DNA from: Zunongwangia pacifica
GTDB lineage: Bacteria; Bacteroidota; Bacteroidia; Flavobacteriales; Flavobacteriaceae
DNA length: 50,191 nt
Reading direction: 5' to 3'
Assembly: GCF_023499215.1 (NCBI RefSeq)
Contig: NZ_JAKHSK010000037.1
Coordinates: 1-50,191, forward strand
The notes beneath the pieces were generated by a model. It was not told the origin of the DNA. It saw only the letters and a program-made list of their open reading frames with translations, and did no database searches. Position numbers and translations under genes: made by a program. Of this stretch, positions 6,604 through 39,676 are shown piece by piece; the stretch's first letter is position 1, and each line of letters starts with the position of its first letter.

Positions 6604-6628
6604 TTTAGCATTAACTGATACTATATTA
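6604..6628 (-). promoter_or_regulatory. Candidate AraC operator, copy 1 (before the M1 peptidase gene)
   Basis: Read on the minus strand this is TAATATAGTAT, 8 bases, GCTAAA. It matches the other three copies at 17108-17132, 22222-22246 and 27151-27175 with the same 8-base spacing, differing only in the last base. It lies 74 bases before the ATG at 6702, in the opposite orientation to the others. The two half-sites separated by about one helical turn fit the way two HTH units of an AraC-type protein bind. The assignment to the regulator at 16208-17050 is inference. Confidence 0.55.
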
Positions 6629-6701
6629 ACCATAAATATGGTTTTTGTTGGTTATTGAACAAATATTTTACAACTTTACACTAAACTCTCTGCTTATACT
6701 T

Positions 6702-8384
6702 ATGAATAGAAAATTATTTTTTCTGGTTTTATTGATTTTAACGGCAATTTCTCTAAAAGCTCAGGAAACTCAATTTACTCATGCCGATACTCTTAGAGGA
6801 AGTATAACCCCTGAAAGAGCCTGGTGGGACGTGATGCGCTACGATATTTCAGTAACACCAGATTTTGATAAAAAATATACTTCAGGATTTAATAACATCA
6901 CCTATAAAGTAGTTCAGCAAGATCATCCTAATGTGATGCAAATCGATCTTCAACAACCTTTAGTGATCGATAGTATTATTTACGACAAAAAACAATCATT
7001 AAGTTTTAGTAGAGAAGGTGATGTGTACTTCGTGAAAACTGAGCCTCAAAACATCGAATATGAGCATGAAGTGAAAATATATTTTAGCGGAAAACCTCAT
7101 GAAGCTATTCGCGCACCCTGGGATGGCGGTTGGACGTTTACCAAAGACGAAAAGGGGAGGCCATGGATGACGGTTACCTGCCAGGGCCTTGGTGCTTCTA
7201 TCTGGTATCCCAATAAAGATCATCAAAGTGATGAGCCAGATCGTGGCGCTTCTTTAACCATACGTGTTCCCAAAGAATTGATGGCTGTGGCCAATGGCCG
7301 AATGTTGGATAAAACCAAACATAAAGACGGAACCATTTCCTATAAATGGGGCGTAGAAAACCCAATAAGTAATTATACCATTATACCTTATATAGGTCAC
7401 TATAAAAACTTCTCTGAAGTTTATACCGGCATAAAAGGCGATTTAGATCTTAACTACTGGGTGTTAGATTATAATGTAGAGAAAGCAAAAGATTATATGC
7501 CCACAGAAGTTCATAACCTTTTAGATGCTTTTGAATATTGGTTTGGGCCTTATCCTTTTTATGAAGATGGTTATAAATTGGTAGAGACAGAGCATACCGG
7601 GATGGAGCATCAATCTAATGTTTCATATGGTAACTGGTATGCCGGCGGCTATCGTGGCAGGGATTTATCGGGTACCGGTCTTGGTTTAACCTGGGATTTT
7701 ATTATTATCCACGAGAGTGGTCACGAGTGGTTTGGTAATAATATTACCACTAACGATCTGGCCGATATGTATATTCATGAGAGCTTTACCAATTATAGTG
7801 AAACCCTGTTCCTGGATTATGTGTATGGCGAAGAAGCTGCGAACGATTATAACTACGGAACAAGAGGAGGAATCAAAAATGACAAGCCTATTATTCCTGA
7901 TTATGGCGTTAATGCACAGGGGAGCGGTGATATGTACCCTAAAGGCGGGAATATGCTACATAGCATTCGCCATAGTATAGACAATGATAAGTTATTTAAG
8001 AACATTCTTACCGGCTTGAATATGACTTTTCATAACAAAACGGTAGATGGTTTAGAGGTTCAGGAATATATTTCAGATAAATCAGGTTACGATTACTCAA
8101 AAGTTTTCGAGCAATATTTGACCACGACAAAAATTCCGAAACTTCAGTTATATGTAGATGCATCAAACAGTAAAATGTTTTATAGATATACCAATATAGT
8201 AGATGGATTTAATTTACCGTTAGTGCTAAAAGGAGATGAAGAAAAAATAAAAATTATCCCTTCATCAGATTGGCAAAGTGTAGCTATTCAGCATAAAAAT
8301 CAGTATTTATTTACCCCTTGGAGGATAGAGCATATGTATTATGTAGATGTAGAATTACTCGATAATCGGGATGACTCGAAATAA
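6702..8384 (+). CDS. Secreted M1-family metallo-aminopeptidase
   Basis: The protein is 560 residues with a signal peptide ending near SLKAQ. The zinc site is complete: HESGHEW (H337, E338, H341) followed by the third ligand E360 in IHESFTNYSE. Ahead of it lies GMEHQS, the family's substrate-binding stretch in place of the usual GAMEN. The N-terminal beta domain is at about residues 30-240. The protein lacks the long C-terminal HEAT-like domain of classical PepN, which is normal for the short Bacteroidota forms. It should remove N-terminal residues from peptides outside the inner membrane. The ATG at 6702 is chosen over 6645 because it starts the signal peptide. It opens the hydroxyproline/arabinose block and has candidate operator copy 1 upstream. 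Confidence 0.9.
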   Translation: MNRKLFFLVLLILTAISLKAQETQFTHADTLRGSITPERAWWDVMRYDISVTPDFDKKYTSGFNNITYKVVQQDHPNVMQIDLQQPLVIDSIIYDKKQSLSFSREGDVYFVKTEPQNIEYEHEVKIYFSGKPHEAIRAPWDGGWTFTKDEKGRPWMTVTCQGLGASIWYPNKDHQSDEPDRGASLTIRVPKELMAVANGRMLDKTKHKDGTISYKWGVENPISNYTIIPYIGHYKNFSEVYTGIKGDLDLNYWVLDYNVEKAKDYMPTEVHNLLDAFEYWFGPYPFYEDGYKLVETEHTGMEHQSNVSYGNWYAGGYRGRDLSGTGLGLTWDFIIIHESGHEWFGNNITTNDLADMYIHESFTNYSETLFLDYVYGEEAANDYNYGTRGGIKNDKPIIPDYGVNAQGSGDMYPKGGNMLHSIRHSIDNDKLFKNILTGLNMTFHNKTVDGLEVQEYISDKSGYDYSKVFEQYLTTTKIPKLQLYVDASNSKMFYRYTNIVDGFNLPLVLKGDEEKIKIIPSSDWQSVAIQHKNQYLFTPWRIEHMYYVDVELLDNRDDSK

Positions 8385-8452: not shown

Positions 8453-13500
<5,048 letters not shown>

Positions 13501-13943: not shown

Positions 13944-16193
13944 ATGGCCAAAAATCACCTTTTAAGAATAGCGATATTGCTTTTCTTTTCCTCTTCCATA
14001 ATCGCACAGGAAGATGCTAAACTTTTAAGTTTAGAACGTATTTATTCCTCATCAGAATTTAGTAGTGATTATCAACGTCCTATCTTCTGGATAGAAGGCG
14101 GCGATGCTTTTGTGAGTATTGAAAAAGATGATTCGGGTAACGATGAGCTTATTCGGTACGAAAGCAAAAATTATAAATCGAATACTTATTTAGCGGCTAA
14201 AAATCTTACTGTAAATGATAAAAATCTGGTCATAGAAGATTTTTCGTTATCACCAGATGGTAGCAAGGTACTTATTTTTACCAATTCCAGCAGGGTTTGG
14301 CGCTCTAATACCAAAGGCGATTTTTGGGTTTACGATTTTGATACCTGGGAATTAAAGCAATTAGGAAAAGATTTTCCGTCTTCATCATTGATGTTTGCAA
14401 AATTCTCTGAAGATAATCAGTTTGTAGCCTATGTGCATAATTTTAATATTTATAAGGAGAATTTTAAAACCGGAGAAATTACTCAGTTAACCAAAGACGG
14501 CACCGGTGATATTATTAACGGAACGTTCGATTGGGTTTATGAAGAAGAATTTGGAATGCGCGATGGTTTTATGTGGAGTCCCGATGCTTCCAAAATTGCG
14601 TTCTGGCAACTGGATGCTTCAGCCATTGGTACGTTTTATATGATTAATAATACAGATTCGGTTTATTCTGAGCCTATTCCTCTTCAATATCCAAAAGCGG
14701 GATACGACCCTTCTTCAGCAAAAGTTAGGATAGTAGATACCAAAACTTCCGAAGTAAAATGGATCCCAATGCCTGGTGATCCTGTGCAGCATTATCTACC
14801 GGCAATGCAATGGCTTAATAAAGATCTGCTGCTTATTCAGCAAATGAATAGGAAACAAAATGAATTGAACATTTTCACCTATAAGCCTTCTACAGATAAG
14901 CTTAAAAAAGTGTATACAGAAACTGAAGATACCTGGGTAGATTTGCGTTATCCTGATATTTCATCAAATCAATGGGGAAATAAAGATCAGTTAATTGTAG
15001 ATAACGGAAAGTCATTTTTACGAATGACAGAAAATGATGGTTGGCGCCATATTTACAAAGTAGATTTAACCTCTGGCGAAAAAACACTATTAACGCCTGG
15101 CGATTACGATGTAGCGACTTATTATCAAACCGATGATAAGAATTTATATATCGTAGCCTCACCAGATAATGCCACGCAACGTTATTTATATCGAGTACCT
15201 TTAAATGGAAGTGGAAAATTAACAAGAATTACTCCGCAGCAGTACGAAGGTGTAAATACGTATGATGTTTCTCCAAACGGAGAATATGCGATCCATAAAT
15301 TTACCAATGTAAGCACCCCAACTACGGTTAGTTTGGTGAGCCTGCCTAAACATAAATCGGTAGAAACGTTGGTGGATAATGAACACTTAAAAAGCAAATT
15401 AGCTTCTTTAGTGCTACCGGAGACGACATTTTTTAAAGTGACTATCGATGATGATGGAATTGAAATGGACGCCAGGATGACCAGGCCTCTAAATTTTGAT
15501 TCCGCTAAAAAATATCCGGTTCTTTTTCATGTGTATGGCGAGCCTTGGGGTGTTGTCGCCACCGATCAATGGGTTGGATTATACGAGCTTTTTATGGCGC
15601 AACAGGGATTTGTGGTGATAAGTATTGATAATCGCGGTACACCAACTTTAAAAGGTAGTAAATGGCGAAAAAGTATTTATCAAAAAGTGGGAGTGATTAA
15701 CACCAATGATCAGGCTGCAGCCGCTAAAAAAGTATTAGCAACCTATAATTTCTTAGATGAAAACAGGGTAAATGTTTGGGGATGGAGTGGTGGAGGCTCT
15801 ATGACGCAGAATCTACTTTTTAGATATCCAGAAGTTTACAACACCGGGGTTGCGGTTGCCGGTGTGGCCAATCAGTTGTTTTATGATAATATTTATCAGG
15901 AACGTTATATGGGATTGCCAGATGAAGATAAAGAAAAGTTTATTGAAGGATCTCCTGTAACATATGCAAAAAATTTAGAAGGAAATCTATTGCTCATTCA
16001 CGGTACCGGAGATGATAATGTACATTACCAGAATATGGAGTTTCTTGTAAATGAACTGATCAGAAATAATAAGCAGTTTGATATGATGGCATATCCAAAC
16101 CGTTCTCATGGTATTTATGAAGGGCAAAATACATCGATCCACCTGTACACGCTCATTACAAATTATTTTTTGGAGCATAACGGATTGAAATAA
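13944..16193 (+). CDS. S9B dipeptidyl-peptidase IV
   Basis: The protein is 749 residues with a signal peptide (cleavage near SIIAQ). An N-terminal beta-propeller (about 40-480) is followed by an alpha/beta-hydrolase domain. The triad is S615 in GWSGGGS, D690 in GTGDDNVHY and H722 in NRSHGIY. The propeller carries the DWVYEEEF motif at residues 196-203, the acidic pair that in DPP4 holds the free N-terminus, so this enzyme should release Xaa-Pro (and probably Xaa-Hyp) dipeptides. It converges on the AraC gene with 14 bases between stops. It supplies the proline-specific step of the proposed backbone breakdown. Confidence 0.92.
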   Translation: MAKNHLLRIAILLFFSSSIIAQEDAKLLSLERIYSSSEFSSDYQRPIFWIEGGDAFVSIEKDDSGNDELIRYESKNYKSNTYLAAKNLTVNDKNLVIEDFSLSPDGSKVLIFTNSSRVWRSNTKGDFWVYDFDTWELKQLGKDFPSSSLMFAKFSEDNQFVAYVHNFNIYKENFKTGEITQLTKDGTGDIINGTFDWVYEEEFGMRDGFMWSPDASKIAFWQLDASAIGTFYMINNTDSVYSEPIPLQYPKAGYDPSSAKVRIVDTKTSEVKWIPMPGDPVQHYLPAMQWLNKDLLLIQQMNRKQNELNIFTYKPSTDKLKKVYTETEDTWVDLRYPDISSNQWGNKDQLIVDNGKSFLRMTENDGWRHIYKVDLTSGEKTLLTPGDYDVATYYQTDDKNLYIVASPDNATQRYLYRVPLNGSGKLTRITPQQYEGVNTYDVSPNGEYAIHKFTNVSTPTTVSLVSLPKHKSVETLVDNEHLKSKLASLVLPETTFFKVTIDDDGIEMDARMTRPLNFDSAKKYPVLFHVYGEPWGVVATDQWVGLYELFMAQQGFVVISIDNRGTPTLKGSKWRKSIYQKVGVINTNDQAAAAKKVLATYNFLDENRVNVWGWSGGGSMTQNLLFRYPEVYNTGVAVAGVANQLFYDNIYQERYMGLPDEDKEKFIEGSPVTYAKNLEGNLLLIHGTGDDNVHYQNMEFLVNELIRNNKQFDMMAYPNRSHGIYEGQNTSIHLYTLITNYFLEHNGLK

Positions 16194-16207: not shown

Positions 16208-17050
16208 TTAATCAGTTTGTTGCCTGTACTGTGTTGGTGTAAAACCTTTTAGTTCTTTGAACTTACGATTAAAATTGGCGATATTTTGAAATCCGCAAAG
16301 TTCGGAAATTGCTGATACCGATAAGTCCTGGTCTTTATACAATAGTTTACAGGCATGTTCTATTCGTATTTCTATTAAAAATTGAAAGAAGGTTTTATTT
16401 GTTCTTTTCTTAAAATACCGGCAAAATGCATTTTTACTCATAAATGCAATTTCGGCGATATCTTCCAGAGAAATATTATCATGAAAGTTGTCCATAGCGT
16501 ATTGAAAAACATCGTTCATACGTTTTCCCTCGTCTTCAGTATATTTTTTTTGGTACACAAAAGAAGACAACGGCTGTCTCTCAGCATGTGTAAGTTCATT
16601 TAGCAATAATAATAGGGTCGCCACCCTTTCGATTTTGCTTTGTCGCTTCAGGTTATTAAAAAGATGAAATTTTTTGTCATCCGCTTTAATTTTCATTCCA
16701 TACTCAGATTCATCAAAAAACTTCTGAATTCCGCTAAGATCGGTAAGATTAAAAAATTCTTTTCCGAAGGACTTTTTGGTGAAAAAGAGCGTGTACATGA
16801 TAGAATTTGGATGCGCTTCAGCATCACTTCTAAAAACATGCGGGATGTTCTCACCTATAATGAGAATATCATGTGGCTGATATTCGTTAATACTATCACC
16901 AACGATTAAAGAGCCGCTACCTTCCATAATGTAACTAATTTGTATCTCTTCATGCTGATGGAGTTTATCATAAAATACGATTTCATGATCTTCCTGATAT
17001 ACCAGCGCTTCCTTTTCTGGCTTAGGAATTTTAAAGGGGAGAACTTTCAT
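16208..17050 (-). CDS. AraC-family transcriptional regulator
   Basis: The protein is 280 residues. The N-terminal cupin-like sensing domain (about 10-140) shows HQHEEIQISYIMEGSGSL and a PHDILIIGENIPH turn. The C-terminal domain has two HTH units, ending in the AraC signature 'ISELCGFQNIANFNRKFKEL' and GFTPTQYR. It is divergent from the hydroxyproline genes, with the shared control region at 17051-17186 between them. The likely inducer is hydroxyproline or a related compound bound by the cupin domain, which is inference from position. The ATG at 17050 is chosen over 17098 because the family starts at about this point, before 'VLPFKIPKPEKEA'. Confidence 0.88.
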   Translation of the reverse strand: MKVLPFKIPKPEKEALVYQEDHEIVFYDKLHQHEEIQISYIMEGSGSLIVGDSINEYQPHDILIIGENIPHVFRSDAEAHPNSIMYTLFFTKKSFGKEFFNLTDLSGIQKFFDESEYGMKIKADDKKFHLFNNLKRQSKIERVATLLLLLNELTHAERQPLSSFVYQKKYTEDEGKRMNDVFQYAMDNFHDNISLEDIAEIAFMSKNAFCRYFKKRTNKTFFQFLIEIRIEHACKLLYKDQDLSVSAISELCGFQNIANFNRKFKELKGFTPTQYRQQTD

Positions 17051-17107
17051 GGGGTGTGAGTTTTTGTAAATATTATTAAAAAAAACTGAATTAATCAATT
17101 TATATGG

Positions 17108-17132
17108 TAATATAGTATCATGTTTAGCTAAT
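17108..17132 (+). promoter_or_regulatory. Candidate AraC operator, copy 2 (divergent control region)
   Basis: TAATATAGTAT (17108-17118), 8 bases, GCTAAT (17127-17132). It lies 54 bases before the deaminase ATG and 57 bases before the AraC start on the other strand, so one site could serve both. It is identical in spacing to copies 3 and 4 and agrees with them at nearly every motif base. Confidence 0.6.
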
Positions 17133-17186: not shown

Positions 17187-18104
17187 ATGGCAATAAAATG
17201 GGAAGGGGTAATGCCCGCAGTAACCACTAAATTCACAAAGGATGACGAACTGGATTTAGTAACCTTTGAAAAGAATATTAACGCACAACTGGAAGCAGGT
17301 GTAAACGGAATCATCTTAGGAGGAACTTTGGGTGAAGCTAGTACTCTAACACCGGCAGAAAAGGAAACGCTTGTAAAGAAAACTTTAGAAATTACAGCAG
17401 GACAGGTGCCGGTAATCATTAATATTGCCGAGCAGTCTACGACAGAAGCTATTCAGGTGGCTAAAAATGCTGAATCCTGGGGAGCGCAGGGATTAATGTT
17501 GTTACCACCTATGCGTTACAAGGCGACAGATCACGAGACTGTAGTATACTTTAAAGAGATCGCTAAAAATACATCGTTACCAATTATGATCTATAACAAT
17601 CCTGTAGATTATAAGATTGAAGTAACTATCCCAATGTTTGAAGAACTTTTAGCCGATTGTCCGAATATCCAAGCGGTAAAAGAATCTACTCGTGACATTA
17701 GTAATGTTACCCGTTTAAAAAATAAATTTGGGGATCGTATTAAAATCTTATGTGGGGTAGACACCCTGGCATTAGAAAGTATGGTTGCCGGTGCAGATGG
17801 CTGGGTAGCTGGTTTAGTAGCCGCTTATCCTGCAGAAACTGTAGCGATCTATAAGCTGGTTAAATCTGGAGATATCGAAGAAGCATTAAGAATATACAGA
17901 TGGTTTATGCCATTATTAGAATTAGACATTTCTCCACAATTAGTACAAAATATCAAATTGGCTGAAGTGGCTACCGGTTTGGGAACCGAGTATGTAAGAG
18001 CGCCAAGATTAGTTTTACAGGGAGCAGAAAGAGAAAGAGTACAGGGTATCATAGATGCTGCGATGGCTGTAAGACCAGAATTAGTAGAATATAAATCTTT
18101 ATAA
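17187..18104 (+). CDS. DHDPS-family deaminase of hydroxyproline catabolism
   Basis: The protein is 305 residues, one TIM barrel of the dihydrodipicolinate synthase superfamily. The Schiff-base lysine is K165 in IQAVKEST, the Tyr is Y136 in MIYNNP, and the GGTLGEASTLT loop replaces the DHDPS GTTGE. By family and context it converts delta-1-pyrroline-4-hydroxy-2-carboxylate to alpha-ketoglutarate semialdehyde and ammonia. The sequence alone would also fit other DHDPS-like lyases, such as sugar-acid aldolases; the three following genes decide the call. It is cytoplasmic. It is the first gene of a four-gene run with gaps of 18, 6 and 10 bases. Confidence 0.85.
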   Translation: MAIKWEGVMPAVTTKFTKDDELDLVTFEKNINAQLEAGVNGIILGGTLGEASTLTPAEKETLVKKTLEITAGQVPVIINIAEQSTTEAIQVAKNAESWGAQGLMLLPPMRYKATDHETVVYFKEIAKNTSLPIMIYNNPVDYKIEVTIPMFEELLADCPNIQAVKESTRDISNVTRLKNKFGDRIKILCGVDTLALESMVAGADGWVAGLVAAYPAETVAIYKLVKSGDIEEALRIYRWFMPLLELDISPQLVQNIKLAEVATGLGTEYVRAPRLVLQGAERERVQGIIDAAMAVRPELVEYKSL

Positions 18105-21985: not shown

Positions 21986-22020
21986 AAGACTGTCACTTTT
22001 ATAGTGATAGTCTTTTTTTT
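21986..22020 (+). terminator. Intrinsic terminator of the hydroxyproline operon
   Basis: AAGACTGTCAC pairs with GTGATAGTCTT (one G-T pair) around a seven-base loop and is followed by a run of eight T. It lies 34 bases after the dehydrogenase stop. Confidence 0.9.
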
Positions 22021-25360: not shown

Positions 25361-25369
25361 AACTACATC

Positions 25370-27040: not shown

Positions 27041-27065
27041 GATTTTGTTTTTATAACATATGAAG

Positions 27066-27095
27066 ACGGAGTGATAATTATCACTCCGTTTTATT
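27066..27095 (+). terminator. Terminator after the SusCD pair
   Basis: A perfect 24-base palindrome (ACGGAGTGATAA/TTATCACTCCGT) is followed by TTTATTTTA. It should end the SusCD transcript and separate it from the following S9 peptidase unit. Confidence 0.85.
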
Positions 27096-27150
27096 TTATA
27101 GAATCTATACTATAAGGTCGTAAAAGCATATAAAACTTATCAATTAATGT

Positions 27151-27175
27151 TAATATAATATAAATATATGTTAAT
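27151..27175 (+). promoter_or_regulatory. Candidate AraC operator, copy 4 (before the second S9 gene)
   Basis: TAATATAATAT (27151-27161), 8 bases, GTTAAT (27170-27175). It differs from copies 2 and 3 by one base in each half, with the same spacing. It lies 42 bases before the ATG at 27218, just after the SusCD terminator, so it would control the peptidase and glycosidase genes that follow. Confidence 0.5.
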
Positions 27176-29598: not shown

Positions 29599-32500
29599 AT
29601 GAAATTGTATAAAATTATTGCCTGTTTTATTTGCGTTTTGATCGCGGGATTAGTTGAAGTCCGCGCTCAGGGCGATCAGATTCTTGATGGAATAGGAGAA
29701 ACGGGTTTAATTGCCCGCTATGTTTTTGATAAAGATGCCAAAGACTGGTCTCGTAATAACCTGCATGCAGCAATTAAAGGTGACGCCGAGTTTGTAAAAG
29801 ACGAACTATTTAAAAATGTGCTATCACTTTCAAAAGGATCATACATCACTTTGCCTGCTTCAGCACTTAGTAATGTTGAGTCGGTTAGTATAGCAGGTTG
29901 GGTAAAACCGAATTCCACAAATTCAGGTCAGATCTTTTTTTACTTCGGAAAAAATCAAAATTCTCATACGTATTTAGCACCCTTCGGAACAGGAGCATAT
30001 ACAGATTTTACTGCTGAAGTTGCAAAAAGTATGAATAAAACATACACATTATCAACCTCAGTAGCTGAAGTTTCTAAAGATCGCTGGTCACATTTGGTAT
30101 TGGTGATCGACGTGCCTTCAAAAGCTATAAAAACCTATATCAATGGTGTTCAGGTGGGGATGAAAGAAAAAATTGACCTTGAACTATCTGATATTTTTAA
30201 TGTAGAATCTGGAGAAGAAAATCAATTATACATCGGTAAAGCTATCGCGCAGGAGCAGGCTTTTTTGGATGCCAGTATTCATGATTTCAGAATGTATAGA
30301 ATTGCATTAACCGATAATCAGGTAAATGGAATATTTGAAAATGCTTTAAAAAAGCAAGATGGGGTGGTAAATGAGCGTAAAGAACCTCAGGATAACCTGC
30401 CGGAATTTTCAAGAACTGCTCCGCAAGTGTATAATGAATTTTTAACTTCAGTAGAAGATATTGAAATAGAAACAGAGGTAGGCGTTTTACCACGACTACC
30501 AAGAACGCTTGCAGGTACTTATAAAAATGGCCTAAAGGGGCCAAAAGTAAAAGTAATCTGGCCGGCGCCAACAGATAATAGCGAAGTTTTAAAAACCGGA
30601 ACCTATACCATAATCGGAAGCGTTGCCGGAACAGATCTTGCCCCTAAAGCTACCGTTAACGTAGTTGAGCATATTATTACTGAAAAGCCAGACAGAAAAT
30701 TAGAAACATTTAGTTTGGATCAGGTAAGTTTAGAGGCCAATGCCAACGGACAAAACACGAAATTCATCGAAAATCGTGATAAATTTATAAATACTCTTGC
30801 TGAAACAGATCCCGATTCATTTTTGTATATGTTTAGAAATGCATTTGGCCAGCAACAGCCACAAGGTGCAAAACCTCTTGGCGTTTGGGATACTCAGGAA
30901 ACCAAATTACGCGGACATGCCACCGGTCATTATTTAACTGCTATAGCGCAGGCTTATGCCAGTACGGGATACGATAAAGAGCTGCAGCAGAATTTTGCCG
31001 ATAAAATGGAGTATATGGTCAACACCTTATACCAATTATCGCAAATGTCTGGAAAACCTGCCAAAGATGGTGGTGATTTTAATGCCGATCCAACAGCGGT
31101 TCCTATGGGACCGGGGAAAGAAATATATAGTTCCGATCTTAGCGAAGAAGGTATTCGTACCGATTACTGGAACTGGGGAGAAGGTTTTATCAGTGCATAT
31201 CCGCCTGATCAATTTATTATGCTTGAAAATGGAGCGGTTTATGGTACCGAAGAAACCAAGATTTGGGCACCGTATTACACCTTGCATAAGATCCTTGCCG
31301 GATTAATGGATATCTATGAAGTAAGCGGAAACAAAAAAGCTTTAGCGGTTGCTGAAGGAATGGGAGATTGGGTGTATGCACGCTTAAGCGAATTACCAAC
31401 CGAGACATTGATAAGCATGTGGAATCGCTATATCGCAGGTGAGTTTGGCGGAATGAATGAAGCTATGGCGCGTTTATACCGAATTACCGGAAAAGAGGAG
31501 TATTTAAAAACTGCCAAACTTTTTGACAATATCAAGGTATTTTTTGGAGATGCGAATCATTCTCACGGTTTAGCCAAAAATGTAGATACCTTTAGAGGTT
31601 TACACGCCAATCAGCATATTCCGCAGATTGTAGGCGCTTTAGAGATGTATCGGGATTCCGATAAACCGGAATATTTTAATGTGGCCGATAATTTTTGGGT
31701 AAAAGCAACTAACGATTATATGTACAGTATTGGCGGAGTGGCAGGAGCCAGAAATCCTGCGAATGCCGAATGTTTTATTGCGCAACCGGGAACCTTATAT
31801 GAAAATGGTTTATCAGCAGGCGGGCAAAACGAAACCTGTGCGACCTATAATATGTTAAAACTTACCCGTGATTTATTCCTTTACGAACAGCGCCCGGAGC
31901 TTATGGATTATTACGAGCGTGGATTGTATAATCATATTTTAGCATCGGTAGCAGAAGATTCTCCGGCAAACACCTATCACGTTCCGTTGCGCCCGGGCTC
32001 CAAAAAAAGCTTTGGCAATCCTAATATGACCGGTTTTACCTGTTGCAACGGTACGGCTTTAGAAAGCAGCACAAAACTTCAGAATTCCATCTATTTTAAA
32101 GATGCTAATAACAAAGCATTGTATGTGAACCTTTACGTACCCTCTACCTTGCACTGGCATGAGCAAAACATAAAACTGACTCAGGAAACGAATTTCCCTA
32201 AAGAAGATCATACCAAATTAACGATTAACGGTAAAGGTAAATTTGATCTTAAATTACGGGTGCCGGGTTGGGCAACAAGGGGATTTATCTTAAAGATCAA
32301 TGGTAAGGAAGAAAAAATGGAAGCCACTCCCGGAACCTATGTAACGCTTAGCAGAAAATGGAAAGATGGCGACACGGTAGAACTAAAAATGCCATTCAGT
32401 TTTTATTTAGATCCTGTGATGGATCAGCAGAATATCGCAAGTTTATTTTACGGTCCTGTTTTATTAGCCGCTCAGGAAGATGAGCCAAGAACCGAATGGC

Positions 32501-32649
32501 GCAAAGTAAAATTTGATGCTGAAAATATTGGAGCTTCCATCAAAGGAAATCCGGAAGAACTGACTTTCGAGATCGACGGGATCATTTACAAACCATTTTA
32601 CGAAACTTATGGTAGACATTCAGTTTATCTGGATGTAGATCTTGAATAA
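29599..32649 (+). CDS. GH127/GH146 beta-L-arabinofuranosidase with LamG and Ig-like domains
   Basis: The protein is 1016 residues with a signal peptide (cleavage near VRAQ). Order: LamG/concanavalin-like domain (about 30-250), a Big_4-type Ig-like domain with LPRLPRTLAGTYKNG (about 285-360), then the (alpha/alpha)6 catalytic domain. The zinc-thiolate site of the family is visible: E745 and C747 in GQNETCATYN, C815 and C816 in FTCCNGT. In the Bifidobacterium enzyme HypBA1 the matching cysteine of the CC pair is the nucleophile. That enzyme removes beta-L-arabinofuranose from hydroxyproline-linked arabino-oligosaccharides. GH127 and GH146 are not separable here by eye. RG-II or other arabinose side chains are alternative substrates. 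Confidence 0.9.
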   Translation: MKLYKIIACFICVLIAGLVEVRAQGDQILDGIGETGLIARYVFDKDAKDWSRNNLHAAIKGDAEFVKDELFKNVLSLSKGSYITLPASALSNVESVSIAGWVKPNSTNSGQIFFYFGKNQNSHTYLAPFGTGAYTDFTAEVAKSMNKTYTLSTSVAEVSKDRWSHLVLVIDVPSKAIKTYINGVQVGMKEKIDLELSDIFNVESGEENQLYIGKAIAQEQAFLDASIHDFRMYRIALTDNQVNGIFENALKKQDGVVNERKEPQDNLPEFSRTAPQVYNEFLTSVEDIEIETEVGVLPRLPRTLAGTYKNGLKGPKVKVIWPAPTDNSEVLKTGTYTIIGSVAGTDLAPKATVNVVEHIITEKPDRKLETFSLDQVSLEANANGQNTKFIENRDKFINTLAETDPDSFLYMFRNAFGQQQPQGAKPLGVWDTQETKLRGHATGHYLTAIAQAYASTGYDKELQQNFADKMEYMVNTLYQLSQMSGKPAKDGGDFNADPTAVPMGPGKEIYSSDLSEEGIRTDYWNWGEGFISAYPPDQFIMLENGAVYGTEETKIWAPYYTLHKILAGLMDIYEVSGNKKALAVAEGMGDWVYARLSELPTETLISMWNRYIAGEFGGMNEAMARLYRITGKEEYLKTAKLFDNIKVFFGDANHSHGLAKNVDTFRGLHANQHIPQIVGALEMYRDSDKPEYFNVADNFWVKATNDYMYSIGGVAGARNPANAECFIAQPGTLYENGLSAGGQNETCATYNMLKLTRDLFLYEQRPELMDYYERGLYNHILASVAEDSPANTYHVPLRPGSKKSFGNPNMTGFTCCNGTALESSTKLQNSIYFKDANNKALYVNLYVPSTLHWHEQNIKLTQETNFPKEDHTKLTINGKGKFDLKLRVPGWATRGFILKINGKEEKMEATPGTYVTLSRKWKDGDTVELKMPFSFYLDPVMDQQNIASLFYGPVLLAAQEDEPRTEWRKVKFDAENIGASIKGNPEELTFEIDGIIYKPFYETYGRHSVYLDVDLE

Positions 32650-32785: not shown

Positions 32786-34480
32786 ATGAAGAAATTATTA
32801 AGTTTTCTTTTCGTATTTATAAGCCTTTCCAGTAGCATTTATGCTAATGAGATGATCGATGTAATTAACACCTTTAGAGCCGATAAATTTGCGTTAAGAC
32901 GTACTTATACCATGCGTGAATCTAAAGAATACTACGAGCGTTACAATCAATTTTATACCGATTGGGAAGCCAAACTGAAAAATATCGATTTTAACGGATT
33001 ATCGAAGGATGGAAAAGCCGATTATGTACTTTTAAGAAACCTGATCGCAAAGGAGGAATATCTGCTTAATCAGGATTACGCAGCTTTTCAAGAAGTAGCT
33101 TCAGTAGTCGATTTTGCAGATAATTTGTATGCTTTTATTCAGCAAAGAAGAAGAGGAACCCAGCCAGATGCCAAAGTATTGGCGATGACTTTTAATGAGG
33201 CTGAAAAGAGCATTTCAGAAAAAATAAAAGTGCTTAAAAACAACGAATTTAAGGATTGGTTGAAGGCTGAAAAGGCTGCAGCGATTATTTCTTCGCTTCA
33301 ACGTGGTTTAAGTGAAGCTTATAATTTTTATTATGATTACGATCCAGATTTTACCTGGTGGATGAAGACTCCGTATGCCTCTTTAGATCAAAAATTGAAG
33401 GAATATGCCGAATTTCTTATTGAACATTATTCCAAAGAGAGTCAGAAGGATGATGGCAGCGGAATTATAGGGAAACCGGTTGGTAGAAAAACGCTGATCA
33501 AAAACCTGGAATATGAGTTTATTCCTTATACGCCAGAAGAACTAATCGAAACCGCTGAAAAGCAATTTGACTGGTGTAAAACCGAAATGATTAAAGCTGC
33601 TAAGGAAATGGGCTATGGTGAAGATTGGAAAGCAGCCTTAGAGCATGTAAAAAATACGTATGTAGCGCCAGGTAAACAGCCAGAAGCGATTAATGATTTA
33701 TATGAACATTCCGTAGATTTTATTGAAGAACGTGATCTTATTACGATTCCGGAACTGGCTAAAGAAACCTGGGGAATGATTATGATGACCCCGGAACGGC
33801 AAAAAGTGAATCCGTTTTTTACCGGTGGTTGGGAAATTAGTATTTCGTATCCAACAGAAGGTATGGAGCACGACGATAAATTAATGAGCATGCGTGGTAA
33901 TAATCCCAATTTCTCATTCCCTACCGTACAGCACGAATTGCATCCCGGACATAATCTTCAGTTTTATATGAATCAGCGGAATAAACCTTACCGTAGTTCG
34001 TTTGATACTCCATTCTGGATGGAAGGCTGGGCGTTGTATTGGGAAATTTTGTTGTGGAATAAGGATTTTCCAAGAACTCCAGAAGAAAAAATGGGAATGC
34101 TTTTTTGGAGAATTCACCGTTGTGCAAGAATCATTTTCTCTTTAAAATATCAGTTGGGAGAATGGACTCCGCAACAGTGTATAGACATGTTAGTAAACAA
34201 AGTAGGGCATGAGTATGCCAATGCTGAAGCTGAAGTCCGCCGGTCTTTTGCGACATCGTACACCCCGCCATTATATCAATTAGCTTATATGATCGGCGGA
34301 CTTCAGTTTTATGCCATGCGAAAGGAGCTTTTAGAAAAGGGATGGACAGAAAAACAATTTCATGATCGCGTTATGAAAGAGAATATCATGCCGGTATCCG
34401 TGCTGCGGTTATTGTTAGAAGATAAGGACATTCCTAAAAATTATAACGCCGACTGGAAATTCTCTACCGATTTTAAATAA
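32786..34480 (+). CDS. DUF885-family putative metallopeptidase, exported
   Basis: The protein is 564 residues with a short signal peptide (cleavage near SIYA). It is of the largely helical DUF885 family. The zincin-like motif HELHPGH lies at residues 383-389 and a second acidic motif EGWALYWE at 413-420, the pattern of a metal site with a downstream Glu ligand. The members are generally thought to be metal-dependent carboxypeptidase-like enzymes, but the substrate is not established. Between GH127 and GH51 in a Pro/Hyp block, a role in cutting glycopeptide backbones is plausible but inferred. Confidence 0.8.
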   Translation: MKKLLSFLFVFISLSSSIYANEMIDVINTFRADKFALRRTYTMRESKEYYERYNQFYTDWEAKLKNIDFNGLSKDGKADYVLLRNLIAKEEYLLNQDYAAFQEVASVVDFADNLYAFIQQRRRGTQPDAKVLAMTFNEAEKSISEKIKVLKNNEFKDWLKAEKAAAIISSLQRGLSEAYNFYYDYDPDFTWWMKTPYASLDQKLKEYAEFLIEHYSKESQKDDGSGIIGKPVGRKTLIKNLEYEFIPYTPEELIETAEKQFDWCKTEMIKAAKEMGYGEDWKAALEHVKNTYVAPGKQPEAINDLYEHSVDFIEERDLITIPELAKETWGMIMMTPERQKVNPFFTGGWEISISYPTEGMEHDDKLMSMRGNNPNFSFPTVQHELHPGHNLQFYMNQRNKPYRSSFDTPFWMEGWALYWEILLWNKDFPRTPEEKMGMLFWRIHRCARIIFSLKYQLGEWTPQQCIDMLVNKVGHEYANAEAEVRRSFATSYTPPLYQLAYMIGGLQFYAMRKELLEKGWTEKQFHDRVMKENIMPVSVLRLLLEDKDIPKNYNADWKFSTDFK

Positions 34481-34500: not shown

Positions 34501-36819
34501 ATGAAAAAATTTAAAGGAATTTTTCTTCTACTTCTGGTCTGTACGATCTACTCTTGCGGCAAGGATAAAAACGAAATTTTATTATCGCCTGTAAAAAATG
34601 CAGTGGTAAAAGAAAGCGACTGGCAGTACGAACCCTGGAGTGCACCGGTACATTACAGTGATACGGCTTCAGATCAATACAATTCGCAGGTGCTTATCCT
34701 TTCTTCAGATACCTTAACGGCTGAACGTTGGTTTAAAAAAATAGAGGTAAAACCTTTTGCCACTTATAAAGTGACCGGTTATGTAAAAACTGAAGGTGTA
34801 GAAGGCGAAAGCGCACAAAGTGGCGCCGGATTACGATTAGGAAAATTCGAATTTACCGGAGACACCATTTTTAAAGGTGATACCGATTGGACAAAAGTGG
34901 AAATGGAATTCTCTACCACAATGGACGATAGCTTTTTGTTGGAATTGTTATTGGGAAAACAAGGACAGGCCAAAGGGAAAGTTTATTTTGATCATTTTCA
35001 GTTAGAAGAAATTTCAGCTAAAGAATTAAAGCCTGCAATTACGGTACACCTGGATAAAAAATTAGATCCTATGTCGCCCTATATCTATGGGCAGTTTATA
35101 GAACATATGGGAAAATCTATTTACGGTGGGATGTGGGCAGAGATGCTGGACGATCGCAAATTTTATTATGTTCCCGGCACCAAATTATCACCTTGGGAAA
35201 CGGCTGTAGATACCAATTTGGTTACCATCGATAGTTCGTATGCGTATTCAAAAGGAAAATTACCGGTGTATCAGGTAGAAAATAATTTAAGCTTAAAACA
35301 ACAAAAATTAGCCCTTGTTTCTGGCAAAACTTATGAAGGCCGATTGGTTTTTAAAGGAAATGGCATCAAAAAAGTTACGATTTCTTTAAACGGAACTAAG
35401 GAGAGTTTTGAAGTTTCAGGAACTGATTTTCAGAAAATAGCTTTTGAGTTTTCTTCGGAAGAAACCAGCGATAATGCTGTTTTAGAAATTGCTTTTGAAG
35501 GAAATGGAAAACTAACTTTAGCTGCAGTTTCTTTAATGCCAAGCGACAATATTGAAGGATACCGCCCTGAAGTAATCGAATTAATGAAGCAGTTAGATGC
35601 TCCGATCTATAGATGGCCCGGTGGAAATTTTGTTTCAGGTTACGACTGGAAAGATGGAATTGGTGATCCCGATAAGCGCCCCACCAAATTTGAGCGTGCC
35701 TGGAATGGTTTGGAATATAACGATGTTGGTGTACACGAATTTATGGAACTTTGTGAGATTTTAGACACCAAAGCAAATATTGCCGTAAACACCGGTTTGG
35801 GAACCGCTGAGCTAGCTGCGGAGGAAGTGGAATATTTTAACGGAGCGGTCTCTACAAAAATGGGACAATGGAGAGCTGAAAACGGGCATCCAGCACCTTA
35901 CGATGTGAAACTTTGGGCCGTAGGAAACGAAATGTTTGGGGACTGGCAGTTAGGGCACATGCCTATCGAAGATTATGTGAAAAAGCATAATAAGGTGGCT
36001 AAAGCAATGTGGGCGGTAGATCCCGATATCGATCTTATCGCTGTGGGATATCCCGGAAAATGGAATGATATGATGTACAAGAATTGTGCAGATTACATGA
36101 CCTTTATAAGTGAACATTTTTATAAGCAAAACTGGCATGCCGGTGGGTTATTAACCCACGTGAACCAGATGCCTGAGGTGATTTCGGCTGTTGCTGAAGA
36201 GCACCGAAGAGCGCGTAGGGAAATTCCCGGAATAGCAGAAAAGAATATCAAAATTGCTATGGATGAGTGGAATTACTGGTACGGTCCACATGTGTATGGA
36301 TTATTGGGGACACGTTATTTTTTAAGGGATGCGTTAGGTATCGCTGCCGGATTGAATGAATTCTCTCGCCAGTCGGATATTTATTATATGGCGAATTATG
36401 CACAAACCGTAAATGTAATTGGCGCGATAAAAACCACCAAAACAGATGCCTGGTTAGAAGGCACGGGACTGGTGTTAAAATTATATCGCAAGGAATTTGG
36501 TACGCAGCCGGTTGAATTTACCGGATCGCCAGAACCTTTAGATGTTTCAGCTACTTTAACAGAAGATGGTGAATTTCTTACAATTTCAGTGGTAAATGCG
36601 ACTCATCAAAAGCAGTTTTTAAAATTAAATGGTTTTTCAGAAGGTATAGCCACTTCAGGAGAAGCTTTTATTATTTCAGGAGAACATGATATGGTTTTTA
36701 ATGATGAAGAACATAAAGACCGCATCAGCATTAGAAAAGCGGATATAGAAATTTTAGAAAATAGTATGAAGATTCCGAAGGAAAGTGCAGGAATCTATAA
36801 ATTTAAAGTGATTAAATAA
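34501..36819 (+). CDS. GH51 alpha-L-arabinofuranosidase lipoprotein
   Basis: The protein is 772 residues. The lipobox IYSCG gives a lipidated Cys at about residue 19, so it is membrane-anchored. A CBM-like beta-sandwich lies at about 25-175, then the GH51 TIM barrel and C-terminal beta domain. The acid/base E477 is in AVGNEMFGD and the nucleophile E589 is in AMDEWNYWYG. It removes alpha-L-arabinofuranose, such as the terminal alpha-1,3-Araf on extensin-type Hyp-Ara4 chains. It starts 20 bases after the DUF885 gene. Confidence 0.93.
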   Translation: MKKFKGIFLLLLVCTIYSCGKDKNEILLSPVKNAVVKESDWQYEPWSAPVHYSDTASDQYNSQVLILSSDTLTAERWFKKIEVKPFATYKVTGYVKTEGVEGESAQSGAGLRLGKFEFTGDTIFKGDTDWTKVEMEFSTTMDDSFLLELLLGKQGQAKGKVYFDHFQLEEISAKELKPAITVHLDKKLDPMSPYIYGQFIEHMGKSIYGGMWAEMLDDRKFYYVPGTKLSPWETAVDTNLVTIDSSYAYSKGKLPVYQVENNLSLKQQKLALVSGKTYEGRLVFKGNGIKKVTISLNGTKESFEVSGTDFQKIAFEFSSEETSDNAVLEIAFEGNGKLTLAAVSLMPSDNIEGYRPEVIELMKQLDAPIYRWPGGNFVSGYDWKDGIGDPDKRPTKFERAWNGLEYNDVGVHEFMELCEILDTKANIAVNTGLGTAELAAEEVEYFNGAVSTKMGQWRAENGHPAPYDVKLWAVGNEMFGDWQLGHMPIEDYVKKHNKVAKAMWAVDPDIDLIAVGYPGKWNDMMYKNCADYMTFISEHFYKQNWHAGGLLTHVNQMPEVISAVAEEHRRARREIPGIAEKNIKIAMDEWNYWYGPHVYGLLGTRYFLRDALGIAAGLNEFSRQSDIYYMANYAQTVNVIGAIKTTKTDAWLEGTGLVLKLYRKEFGTQPVEFTGSPEPLDVSATLTEDGEFLTISVVNATHQKQFLKLNGFSEGIATSGEAFIISGEHDMVFNDEEHKDRISIRKADIEILENSMKIPKESAGIYKFKVIK

Positions 36820-36901
36820 TTCGGTAATTCAAATAAGCATAAACAAGTGGTAAGTCGGGATTGTATATTTTTGATTGCAATTCCTGATAATTGAGCAAAC
36901 A

Positions 36902-39598
36902 ATGAACATGAGAACTAAATTACAAACATTACTGTTGTTGTTTTTAATAACGGCAGCAGTGAATGCACAGGAAAAATCAACGTATTGGGATAACCTTAAA
37001 GACCGGGAATCTACTTTGGGACTAGAAGATGGTTTTACAACATTTAAAACCGATGAGTTTACCTTAAAACTGGTCAATGCTTCACAAACGGTAGCCGGAT
37101 TATATCCAAATTCAGATCTCGATTTTGATTTTACTCCGGGCGAGCGAATCGAAATTCGTGATAAAGATGGCATTTATTATATAGGCGATCTAAACTTTAG
37201 AATTAAAGGAGAGGATGGCGAATGGAAATCGTTTTCAACCGCTAAAAACCGAAAAAAAGTAGAAGCCTTATCGGTTTCGGGTCATGTTTTAACAGCGGCA
37301 GATTTAAGTAATACGTTAGGAAAAGATAATCCGCTTACTATTAAAAGATATTACGAGAAAAAAGATGGCGCGTTGGTTTTACGCTTTGAGATTACAAATC
37401 CAACAACTAAAACTATGGAAATCGGTGCTTTAGGGACACCAATGGCGTTTAATAATATTCTGGAAGGAAAACATCTGGATGAAACACATGCCGATAATGT
37501 ATTTTTTGATCCCTATATTGGTAATGATGCCGGTTATGTAGAAGTAAAGCATCTTACCGGAGAAGGACAGGTTTTACTGGTGTTGCCAGAGGAAAATATG
37601 CCTTTTGAGGCGTACCGTCCTTTAAATGATGATCCTACCACAAGGAGTATTGTATTTGAAGGAGTACATGAATGGATGGCATTGAGTAAAGCTTATGCCG
37701 AAAAGGAGTGGAAAGGAAAAGAACAGTGGAATAAACCGACGTCTTTGAATCTTGAAGCTGGAGAAACCAAAAATTTCGCATTGAAATTTGTACTGGCACC
37801 TGGTATTAAAGAAATTCAGAATCAATTAATCGAAGAAAAACGACCGGTAGCGGTTGGTGTACCGGGATATGTATTGCCAATGGATGTAAAAGGAAAGTTA
37901 TTCCTGAATTATCCGGAAGAAGTTGAAGCTATTTTAGTAGAACCTAAAAACGCGCTTAAAATTACTGAAATTGGTAAAAAAGGAGGCGGATTTACCGAAT
38001 ATCGGGTAGAAGGAAAAATTTGGGGGAGAAGTCGTGTCACGGTTGCTTATAGAGATGGTTTAGAACAAACGATTAATTATAAAGTGATAAAACCTGAAAC
38101 TGAGGTTGTAGATGATTTTGGTCATTTTTTAATGACCGAACAGTGGTTTGATGAACCCGATGAATTCTTTGGAAGAACAAACTCGGTGATCTCTTATGAT
38201 TATGAAGATAAAAAACAGATCACCCAGGACAGCCGCGCTTGGGTTGCCGGATTAAGTGATGAAGGTGGAGCCGGAAGCTGGTTGGGAGCAATGATGAAAC
38301 AACTTATTCAGCCAGAAAAAGCAGAGATTGAAAAGCTTCAGTTATTTATCGATGAAACACTTTGGGGCGGCATTCAGTATGATGAAGGAGAACGAAAATA
38401 CGGCGTTAAAAAAAGTGTTTTCTTTTATGAGCCGGATTCTTTACCAAAAGGAACGTATAACGACTCGATAAACTACAATACCTGGGCCGCGTGGAATAAA
38501 AAAGGAGCAGACGATCCCGGAAGATCCTACAACTATCCTCACGTTGCAGCAGCTTATTGGGTAATGTACCGTTTAGCCAGATATCACAGTGGTTTAGTTG
38601 ATAATCACGACTGGAAATGGTATTTGGAGCAGGCGTATTATACCTCTATTGCCATGTCTGATCTTGCACCATGGTATGCCGAATTTGGACAAATGGAAGG
38701 AACAGTTTTCTTAAACATTTTGAAAGATTTGCAAACTGAAGGTTTAACGGACATGGCGACGACACTGGAAGCTTCAATGAAGAAAAGGGCCGATCATTGG
38801 AAATCGCTAAACTATCCGTTTGGTAGTGAAATGCCGTGGGATTCTACCGGGCAGGAAGAAGTATTCATGTGGAGTGATTATTTTGGATATCAGCAAAAAG
38901 CCAATGTTACCTTAAATGCTATTCTTGCGTACATGCCGGTCATGCCGCACTGGGCGTATAATGGTAATGCACGTAGATACTGGGATTTTCTTTATGGAGG
39001 AAAATTATCCAGGGTAGAACGCCAAATTCATCATTACGGGTCAGGTTTAAATGCGATCCCTGTTTTAAAAGCCTATCGTGATCATCCCGATTTTTATTTA
39101 TTGAAAGTTGGCTATGGTGGAACTTTAGGAGCGATTTCGAATATAACTCAGGATGGTTTTGGATCTGCAGCGTTCCATTCCTATCCATCGACCATGAGAA
39201 TCGATTATTTGTCGGGGGATTATGGATCTAACTTTTTTGGTTACGCGATAAATACCGCAACGTATATCACAAAGAATGAAGATCTGGGATGGCTTTCTTT
39301 TGGTGGAAATATCGAGGAGAACGATGATGAAATAAAAGTAGTGCTGACAACAGCAGCAAAAAGTAAAATTTATTTTGAACCAAAACAATTATGGTTAACT
39401 TTAGATGCAGGTACTTTTAAAGCCTTGATTTACAATAAATCATCTGAAGAAATCGAGTTGATTTTAAATGAAAAAACTGAGGATAGCCCACAAGCTTACT
39501 TAAGATCGAATAAAGAACTTGATCTTAAATTTGATAAAATGAATGGAGCTTTTAAAATTCCTTTGAAAAAGAAATCTATTTCAATTAGTATAGAATAA
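36902..39598 (+). CDS. Large exported protein, probably DUF5695 family, candidate glycoside hydrolase
   Basis: The protein is about 898 residues from the ATG at 36902 (MNMRTKLQTLLLLFLITAAV, cleavage near NAQ). An earlier ATG at 36875 would add nine residues before the signal. The N-terminal beta-sandwich-like part (about 20-330) is followed by a helical region with SYNYPHVAAAYWVMYRLARY, 'AWNKKGADDPGR' and AFHSYPSTMRIDYLSGDYG. It ends in a beta-rich tail. A beta-sandwich plus (alpha/alpha)6 toroid plan is common to several glycoside hydrolases. The match to DUF5695 is by memory of the motif and is not certain. No activity is known to me. It is the last gene of the block and is followed by a terminator. 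Confidence 0.6.
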   Translation: MNMRTKLQTLLLLFLITAAVNAQEKSTYWDNLKDRESTLGLEDGFTTFKTDEFTLKLVNASQTVAGLYPNSDLDFDFTPGERIEIRDKDGIYYIGDLNFRIKGEDGEWKSFSTAKNRKKVEALSVSGHVLTAADLSNTLGKDNPLTIKRYYEKKDGALVLRFEITNPTTKTMEIGALGTPMAFNNILEGKHLDETHADNVFFDPYIGNDAGYVEVKHLTGEGQVLLVLPEENMPFEAYRPLNDDPTTRSIVFEGVHEWMALSKAYAEKEWKGKEQWNKPTSLNLEAGETKNFALKFVLAPGIKEIQNQLIEEKRPVAVGVPGYVLPMDVKGKLFLNYPEEVEAILVEPKNALKITEIGKKGGGFTEYRVEGKIWGRSRVTVAYRDGLEQTINYKVIKPETEVVDDFGHFLMTEQWFDEPDEFFGRTNSVISYDYEDKKQITQDSRAWVAGLSDEGGAGSWLGAMMKQLIQPEKAEIEKLQLFIDETLWGGIQYDEGERKYGVKKSVFFYEPDSLPKGTYNDSINYNTWAAWNKKGADDPGRSYNYPHVAAAYWVMYRLARYHSGLVDNHDWKWYLEQAYYTSIAMSDLAPWYAEFGQMEGTVFLNILKDLQTEGLTDMATTLEASMKKRADHWKSLNYPFGSEMPWDSTGQEEVFMWSDYFGYQQKANVTLNAILAYMPVMPHWAYNGNARRYWDFLYGGKLSRVERQIHHYGSGLNAIPVLKAYRDHPDFYLLKVGYGGTLGAISNITQDGFGSAAFHSYPSTMRIDYLSGDYGSNFFGYAINTATYITKNEDLGWLSFGGNIEENDDEIKVVLTTAAKSKIYFEPKQLWLTLDAGTFKALIYNKSSEEIELILNEKTEDSPQAYLRSNKELDLKFDKMNGAFKIPLKKKSISISIE

Positions 39599-39650
39599 GT
39601 AGTTTACTAGTTATTCTATATAGTTTTAATTGTTTTTCGATATGTTGAAA

Positions 39651-39676
39651 AGAGAGGTTTTCGCCTCTCTTTTTTT
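39651..39676. terminator. Bidirectional terminator ending the block
   Basis: AGAGAGG pairs with CCTCTCT around a six-base loop, followed by TTTTTT. The A run on the left also suits the minus-strand gene at 39693-39944, which ends here. Confidence 0.9.

Follow-up and report, generated by a model that had tools for sequence, protein, structure and literature searches.

A shared operator-like box marks 4-hydroxyproline catabolism, glycosidase, peptidase and SusC/SusD genes of Zunongwangia pacifica as a likely regulon for hydroxyproline-rich glycoprotein

Hydroxyproline-rich glycoproteins (HRGPs), such as extensins, arabinogalactan-proteins (AGPs) and algal wall proteins, supply carbon and nitrogen, and the loci for glycans and the pathways for amino acids are usually studied apart. 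The question raised here is whether a locus of Zunongwangia pacifica (Flavobacteriaceae), where genes of both kinds stand side by side, is one system. The window is a stretch of 50,191 nucleotides (contig NZ_JAKHSK010000037.1 of assembly GCF_023499215.1), and its part from 6645 to 39598 contains genes for 4-hydroxyproline (Hyp) catabolism, peptidases, SusC/SusD, glycosidases and a DUF5695 protein, as called from open reading frames (ORFs) and from Pfam and NCBIfam profile scans of the window proteins. Their order is M1 peptidase, M24/AMP_N peptidase, GH2, DPP4, AraC, DHDPS-type deaminase, aldehyde dehydrogenase (ALDH), 4-Hyp epimerase, FAD dehydrogenase, SusC, SusD, a second S9/DPP4-type peptidase (S9b), a LamG-Big_4-GH127-type protein (GH127L), DUF885, GH51 and DUF5695, all on the plus strand except the AraC gene on the minus strand. 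A sequence-only reading of this DNA had proposed that these parts form one system using both the sugar and the amino acid of extensin or AGP. All the genes it named are present at their places, and the set also takes in the DUF5695 gene, which that reading had passed over. From this computational analysis we consider it quite likely that the locus is one AraC-type regulon serving the use of Hyp-rich glycoprotein from plants or algae, and the regulon is probably Hyp-responsive.

The locus consists of several transcription units and is not one transcript, because a 945-nt gap precedes the DPP4 gene, the AraC gene lies on the minus strand, and terminator-like hairpins follow the dehydrogenase gene (21986..22014, plus strand, 12 pairs and then a T run, closing the Hyp operon) and the SusD gene (27063..27092, plus strand). 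The co-orientation of the block, as proposed before, stands apart from AraC. In the gaps between the genes a box of 26 nt can be recognised by eye, roughly GGTAATATAGTATTA-N6-GCTAAT, in which two G-TAA half-sites stand at a distance of 21 nt. The exact pattern GDTAATATNRTAYN8GNTAA has four matches in the 5.1-Mb genome, all at this locus, namely upstream of the M1-PepP-GH2 unit (6605..6630, minus strand), in the gap between AraC and the Hyp operon (17106..17131, plus strand), upstream of SusC (22220..22245, plus strand) and upstream of the S9-GH127L-DUF5695 unit (27149..27174, plus strand). The box of the M1 unit has the opposite orientation to the other three, and the same holds for G100, G143, G200 and G202. 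Across 13 genomes the exact pattern has 33 matches, 28 of them within the locus or the glycosidase part split off from it, and the reversed pattern has none. All exact boxes are at the locus in G000, G100, G200, G202, G143, G127, G117, G030 and G075, as are one of four in G061 and none of two in G094. Three of the five outside boxes either precede a DPP4 ortholog of 80% identity (G094) or lie between SusC-like and GH2 genes (G061); the boxes at G094:C42 (within an AraC-like ORF) and at G061:679389 (between PFL-like and AMP-binding genes) look off-target. The pattern was defined after inspecting these loci, so that the whole-genome search and a trained matrix are the less circular tests. With a matrix built from 61 sites in Hyp loci of other genomes without a nearby GH127L, the four window sites score 27.1, 25.8, 24.0 and 22.8 bits in the order given above, and the next best site scores 8.4 bits. 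The box might also be a general Bacteroidota promoter element instead of an operator, and would then say nothing on co-regulation. Its AT-rich composition and its presence in several families would suit such an element, but the restriction of the exact matches to the locus, the lack of reversed matches and the two spaced half-sites argue against it, and we regard it as most improbable.

Which genes does the box belong to in other genomes? Among 98 Hyp loci without a nearby GH127L, which include the separate Hyp operons of G030, G075, G144 and G154 (GH127L elsewhere in the genome), 53 bear the box with one mismatch allowed, and of their 61 sites 55, distributed over 52 loci, adjoin the AraC or the deaminase gene; the reversed pattern gave 2 sites. 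Because these loci bear it, the box belongs to Hyp operons as such. Of the 37 loci outside the Flavobacteriaceae, 16 have it ahead of GH127L at a distance of 44–266 nt (768 kb contained 18 sites in total, reversed control 0). A weak test with a 15-nt core and up to three mismatches, in which some stretches were counted twice, once as an AraC gap and again as a stretch upstream of S9b or SusC, found it in 40/45 AraC gaps and upstream of S9b in 41/46, of SusC in 15/16 and of GH127L in 9/54 cases, against 10/45, 2/46, 1/16 and 1/54, respectively, for the reversed core. Among 84 AraC proteins arranged in a tree, for which 12 chosen named loci were used and rows of 240 residues or fewer were dropped, all 20 from glycosidase-linked loci fall within one group of 24 rows (support 100/99), including those of genomes in which the glycosidase part is separated from the Hyp operon. 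The AraC-family protein of the window (16208..17098, minus strand; HTH_18, 76.5 bits) would be the one that binds the box. As for the co-regulation of glycosidases that is expected in a polysaccharide utilization locus (PUL), the shared box is an in silico observation.

Gene content, linkage and co-occurrence can, like the box, be read from the genomes themselves. A full-length GH127L ortholog (at least 61% identity) is present in 11 of 199 genomes of the window's family, and in all six of the genus, in one of them split over contigs. The Hyp epimerase family, found in 108 of the 199, is present in all 11 (chance about 0.0009). The comparison of gene neighbourhoods excludes that Hyp genes and glycosidases are never linked, since the epimerase gene lies within 10 kb of GH127L (4.0–9.2 kb) in seven of the 11. 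As a control, among 38 other GH127/146-type hits in epimerase-bearing genomes, hand-copied from the genome search table and not the whole of it, only one has the epimerase within 10 kb, namely the hit at the G061 locus itself. Full-length DUF5695 is found in exactly the same 11 genomes as GH127L, in G144 on a different contig; a twelfth, G189, has only a short fragment with stop codons. Among 385 genomes of the phylum, 14 have DUF5695, 12 have GH127L and 10 have both (hypergeometric 4e-15). In G144, genes for M1, DUF5695, a GH51-type protein and an AraC protein (72% identical) are clustered on another contig. Several genera have a conserved core with local losses, AraC / deaminase-ALDH-epimerase-dehydrogenase / (SusC-SusD) / S9b-GH127L-DUF885-(GH51)-DUF5695.

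Loci from named genomes, the best 80 of 352 relatives, were divided by organism name into 43 of Flavobacteriaceae and 37 others, several of the latter being metagenome-assembled genomes (MAGs) without a family name. Both flanks are available for 40 of the 43, and 30 of these have the epimerase; DUF5695 occurs in 28 of the 30, S9b in 28, DUF885 in 29, a GH43 with F5/8 and LamG domains in 21, a second GH51 in 12, a canonical GH127 in 12 and GH42 in 10. Both flanks are available for 30 of the 37 others, with the epimerase in two, L145 and L150. The former, from Pedobacter antarcticus, has epimerase-ALDH-deaminase-M1-aminopeptidase P-DUF5695 divergent from GH127L, and the latter is from a Flavisolibacter MAG. 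In a second family, DUF5695 is within 10 kb of the epimerase in all three DUF5695-bearing genomes, in three different gene orders, and in one of these loci a BT0349-like GH146-type gene (with DUF6805) adjoins DUF5695. An amino acid permease gene is added in L105. The Allomuricauda/Muricauda loci contain genes for an AraR-like NUDIX regulator (L099) and for a class II aldolase and a sugar kinase (L110), which one would expect to find if the system sets arabinose free. The many Hyp-only operons would be explained by collagen or gelatin alone; as the earlier reading had argued, such a substrate leaves the arabinosidases unexplained, and it does not account for the arabinose-type genes beside the glycosidase version either. 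Could the genes be accidental neighbours, a PUL for pectic arabinan beside a general, collagen-type Hyp operon without shared function? Generic Hyp operons are common (103 mapped loci) and often have peptidase-type genes, terminators separate the units, and BT0349, a relative of GH127L, comes from a pectin locus (PMC10850190). However, the same box stands ahead of four units and its exact pattern nowhere else in the genome, it occurs on GH127L in other families, the linkage is repeated in different gene orders, and peptidase genes are interleaved with glycosidase genes, all of which make an accidental neighbourhood very improbable. The claim of one system joining the use of glycan, peptide and Hyp is thus supported by linkage in at least two families, by the matched profiles of GH127L and DUF5695, by the single AraC group, by the box at four units and by boxes that elsewhere precede GH127L, DPP4 and SusC/GH2 genes without such linkage.

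The Hyp pathway had been described as four enzymes with an epimerase having C90 and C253, and this description is confirmed. In the window, the gene for 4-hydroxyproline 2-epimerase (19698..20699, plus strand; NF010578, 599 bits, cut-off 376), with both catalytic cysteines intact, adjoins plus-strand genes of the same operon for a DHDPS-family protein that is presumably the deaminase of the pathway (17187..18104; Pfam DHDPS 202 bits, dapA model 174.6 bits, under the cut-off of 206), an aldehyde dehydrogenase (18123..19691; Pfam Aldedh 171 bits) and an FAD D-amino acid dehydrogenase that is predicted to act on D-Hyp (20710..21951; Pfam DAO 213 bits). By its operon position the aldehyde dehydrogenase may be the alpha-ketoglutaric semialdehyde (KGSA) dehydrogenase; among the matches listed for it no NCBIfam cut-off was reached. 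In the window's family, 103 of 104 Hyp loci were counted, because the ORF caller chose an opposite-strand ORF over the epimerase of G094, which itself was detected, and the mapping leaves out G146, G033 and G003, with the second Pro_racemase type only. ALDH is present in 96 of the 103, DAO in 95 and the deaminase in 92. In L179, L205 and L211 (G025, G096 and G038, respectively), a second, weaker-scoring Pro_racemase-family gene lies about 3–9 kb from the 4-Hyp epimerase on the opposite strand, and perhaps encodes 3-hydroxyproline dehydratase.

The peptidases listed earlier were all found by Pfam, and all are encoded on the plus strand. They are an M1-family metallopeptidase with a signal-peptide-like N-terminus (6645..8384; Peptidase_M1 47.7 bits, HExxH at 356), an M24, aminopeptidase P-type Xaa-Pro peptidase with no apparent signal peptide (8453..9841; M24 166 bits, AMP_N 99 bits), dipeptidyl peptidase 4 with the double-Glu motif DWVYEEEFG (13944..16193; DPPIV_N 274 bits, best PDB match 7y4f, a DPP4), S9b (27218..29461; DPPIV_N 164 bits, Peptidase_S9 153 bits) and the DUF885 protein (32786..34480; 161.5 bits). 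Other genera, and a second family too, have an M1 gene close to Hyp genes. The 945-nt noncoding gap between GH2 and DPP4 (12999-13943) is made up of degenerate direct repeats, in 2–4 copies of 39–89 nt at a spacing of about 190–260 nt. The DUF885 protein has no match to a simple HExxH-type pattern; another DUF885 protein is encoded in 47 of the 103 mapped Hyp loci, mostly between the ALDH and epimerase genes (e.g. L087:7795-9519). Because of this recurrence, we assume that the DUF885 protein of the window is a peptidase for Hyp peptides, and the distribution suggests such a role for DUF885 in general.

What would the glycan be? The GH127/146, GH51 and GH2 glycosidases had been named rightly, but HypBA1, to which GH127L was likened, is not its closest characterised relative. 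GH127L (29599..32649, plus strand) has the Pfam architecture LamG_3, Big_4, GH127 catalytic and middle domain, and in comparison with solved structures only it appears GH146-like rather than HypBA1-like (BT0349, PDB 5opj, 4e-66; Bll3HypBA1, 8k7y, 2e-41; HypBA1 only 2e-9). Its residues E724, E745, C747, C815 and C816 are invariant across 11 aligned orthologs. The last four align with the Glu, Cys, Cys and Cys ligands of Zn in GH146, and E724 is the acid/base Glu by manual re-reading of a gapped alignment, from which the program's printed alignment differs. The GH51-type protein (34501..36819, plus strand; best PDB match 3s2c, 4e-69), predicted to be an alpha-L-arabinofuranosidase with a lipoprotein-like N-terminus, keeps both catalytic motifs (GNE475 and DEW588), and GH2 (9864..12998, plus strand) is a LacZ-type beta-galactosidase by NF052611 (1051 bits, cut-off 999).

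The DUF5695 protein (36875..39598, plus strand; Pfam 1291 bits) was modelled with 35 sequences (pLDDT 81.9, pTM 0.86); an alignment-free model of pLDDT 35 was not used. The model has the beta-sandwich plus alpha/alpha barrel of the PL27 fold and matches the PL27 enzyme BACCELL_00875 (5nok) with a Foldseek E-value of 3e-26 and TM-scores of 0.74 by target and 0.57 by query, followed by the next fold at 6e-8. A profile search of PDB gave 5no8 (PL27) as the sole match (E 1e-6); the identity to PL27 is 15%, and a single-sequence PDB search gave no match at E 1, so that there is no clear PL27 membership in sequence. A GH121-like fold, expected from the analogy with HypBA2, was rejected, as PL27 ranked first and no GH121 is among the 50 best Foldseek matches. 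In our literature search, most subscription papers lying outside its scope, the only mention of DUF5695 found concerns fungal regulators. In the proposed system DUF5695 would act as an undescribed carbohydrate-active enzyme. In G201 a diverged DUF5695 protein (L061:12042-14843, 168 bits) is encoded beside GH127-type, GH2-like and SusCD genes, and may represent a second DUF5695 lineage within another glycan locus.

The identity of the glycan is ambiguous, because GH146 fits Hyp-arabinosides while DUF5695 folds like the AGP lyase PL27. If the substrate is AGP, the PL27-like DUF5695 would remove the caps, GH146 the terminal beta-arabinofuranose (Araf), GH51/GH43 the alpha-Araf and GH2/GH42 the galactose, and the Hyp-rich backbone would then be eaten. 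The fold of DUF5695 points in this direction, PL27 being an enzyme that eliminates rhamnose from gum arabic AGP (PMC8377490), as do GH2 in the window and GH42 in the relatives; moreover, the GH146 enzyme Bll3HypBA1, with LamG and Ig-like modules, is active on beta-1,3-arabinofuranosides of AGP and arabinan (PMC10850190). However, none of the scanned window proteins was named as an exo-beta-1,3-galactanase, an endo-galactanase or a glucuronidase, and the PL27 similarity amounts to 15% identity over the fold. Furthermore, in BT0349, which comes from a pectic rhamnogalacturonan I (RG-I) locus, a Trp occupies the place of Phe and Ile of Bll3HypBA1 (PMC10850190), and Trp556 of GH127L appears aligned with this W162-type residue, so that GH127L seems to have the BT0349-type Trp and not the residues of Bll3HypBA1. 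We give AGP somewhat less than an even chance. If the system instead takes Hyp-arabinosides, the short ones of extensins or of Hyp-rich glycoproteins from algae, alpha-Ara would be removed by GH51/GH43, DUF5695 would perform an arabinobiosidase-like step, and GH146 would release the last Araf-beta-Hyp sugar to leave free Hyp. The GH146 members XeHypBA1 and Bll4HypBA1 act on Araf-beta-Hyp (PMC10850190), GH127L and DUF5695 co-occur closely, and the Hyp-operon box on GH127L in the 16 other-family loci, mostly far from Hyp genes, is as expected if the product of GH127L is Hyp. On the other side, DUF5695 matched PL27 first, with no GH121 among the 50 best Foldseek matches, GH2 has no obvious role, and the specificity residue resembles that of BT0349; we give the Hyp-arabinosides nearly an even chance, only slightly more than AGP, and do not separate the two.

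The SusC/RagA TonB-dependent importer (22355..25360, plus strand; TIGR04056 702 bits, cut-off 368) and the SusD-family protein with a lipoprotein-like N-terminus (25370..27040, plus strand; SusD_RagB 88.7 bits) adjoin each other at 22355-27040, as in a PUL, and their PDB relatives did not indicate the type of substrate. The pair is 98–99% identical in G202 (L057/L058), where most flanking genes are 85–98% identical; in G200 (L059/L060) the pair is only 38–45% identical to that of the window, and in G199 (L055/L056) the interval from the dehydrogenase to S9b is without it. This importer cassette seems to have been exchanged, replaced or lost among relatives. Downstream of the locus, a DDE transposase gene lies at 45489-46316.

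Several observations weigh against one Hyp-type regulon for HRGP. There is no exact box anywhere in G144 and G154, and the Hyp operons of G030, G144 and G154 have none at up to one mismatch. No box precedes the DPP4 gene of the window, while its unlinked 80% ortholog in G094 has one 111 nt upstream. No box stands beside the AraC or deaminase gene in 46 of the 98 Hyp loci, or upstream of GH127L in 21 of the 37 non-Flavobacteriaceae loci (up to one mismatch); in the second family, L260 and L262 have none within two mismatches and the box of L261 has two mismatches. GH127L is remote from the Hyp operon in four of the 11 family genomes, and 28 of the 30 full non-Flavobacteriaceae loci have no Hyp epimerase within 10 kb of GH127L. 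In the 385 genomes, DUF5695 occurs without a GH127L ortholog in four and the reverse in two, and G337, G412, G419 and G474 have DUF5695 (G337 and G474 also GH127L) without any Pro_racemase-family gene. The residue apparently shared with BT0349 and the resemblance of DUF5695 to an AGP lyase, with no AGP galactanase or GH121 named in the window, belong here too.

Considering all of this, we still favour one AraC-type regulon for Hyp-rich glycoprotein, in which the inducer, the enzyme activities, the cell locations and the substrate are what we infer from the genes. The sugars would be stripped by the secreted GH146-like beta-L-arabinofuranosidase, the GH51 alpha-arabinofuranosidase, GH2 and DUF5695; SusC/SusD would import glycopeptides or fragments through the outer membrane; and the Pro/Hyp-rich backbone would be cut by DPP4, S9b, M1, DUF885 and aminopeptidase P. 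The freed L-Hyp would be converted to 2-oxoglutarate by the epimerase, the D-Hyp dehydrogenase, the DHDPS-type deaminase and the semialdehyde dehydrogenase. The AraC-type regulator would bind the one conserved box at the four units and switch them jointly. Since Hyp operons that have no glycosidases nearby bear this box too, Hyp or an intermediate of its pathway is probably the signal, such that the amino acid, not the sugar, would announce the glycoprotein. We see an even chance that the proposal holds in full, with the backbone amino acid as the signal via AraC for glycosidases, SusCD, peptidases and the Hyp pathway, with DUF5695 as a PL27-related, undescribed enzyme family that attacks Hyp-linked glycans jointly with the GH146-like enzyme, and with DUF885 proteins as Hyp-peptide peptidases. 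If so, a glycan system of Bacteroidota would be commanded through an amino acid. The shared box, which ties a glycosidase to Hyp catabolism even at a distance, makes the bacterial use of Hyp-rich proteins directly testable, gives functional leads for DUF5695 and DUF885, and could serve as a marker for the use of plant and algal wall proteins by root and marine Bacteroidota.

How does the locus compare with known systems? Operons for trans-4-hydroxy-L-proline with epimerase, D-Hyp dehydrogenase, DHDPS-type deaminase and KGSA dehydrogenase are known from rhizobia and pseudomonads. The same four enzyme families form a single operon in the window, as is common in its family; unlike in the plain Hyp operons, the SusCD, glycosidase and extra peptidase units adjoin the operon and bear the same operator-like box. 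The PULs of Bacteroidota include some for AGP that carry PL27 and GH127/GH146. The window resembles Bacteroidota PULs in its SusCD pair, in glycosidases that are probably secreted and in the PL27-like fold, and differs in that regulator and box are of the amino acid operon type and that the putative regulon takes in peptidases and an amino acid pathway. The HRGP beta-arabinooligosaccharide cluster of Bifidobacterium longum comprises HypAA (GH43), HypBA2 (GH121), HypBA1 (GH127) and an ABC importer (PMC7263609). With this cluster and with Bll4HypBA1 the window shares LamG/Ig modules and GH127/GH146 enzymes, predicted in the window to remove Hyp-linked beta-L-arabinofuranose; as far as its published description goes, the B. 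longum cluster uses the sugar only, whereas the window adds peptidases and the Hyp pathway, has SusCD in place of ABC import, and has DUF5695 where GH121 might be expected. No window gene was named GH121 by Pfam or NCBIfam, libraries whose inclusion of a GH121 model was left unchecked. The nearest published precedent is a prediction for single amplified genomes of Latescibacteria, in which degradation of Hyp-rich glycoprotein was deduced from a GH127 gene and peptidases; the accessible text lists the genes by function and does not speak of one locus, of a Hyp operon or of common regulation (PMC4454575). Within its scope, our literature search yielded no locus or regulon in which glycosidases and peptidases are combined with Hyp catabolism, which agrees with the earlier view that such loci are little described. 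Hyp operons, GH146 enzymes and PULs are familiar one by one, and what appears to be new in Z. pacifica is their union under one Hyp-type box.

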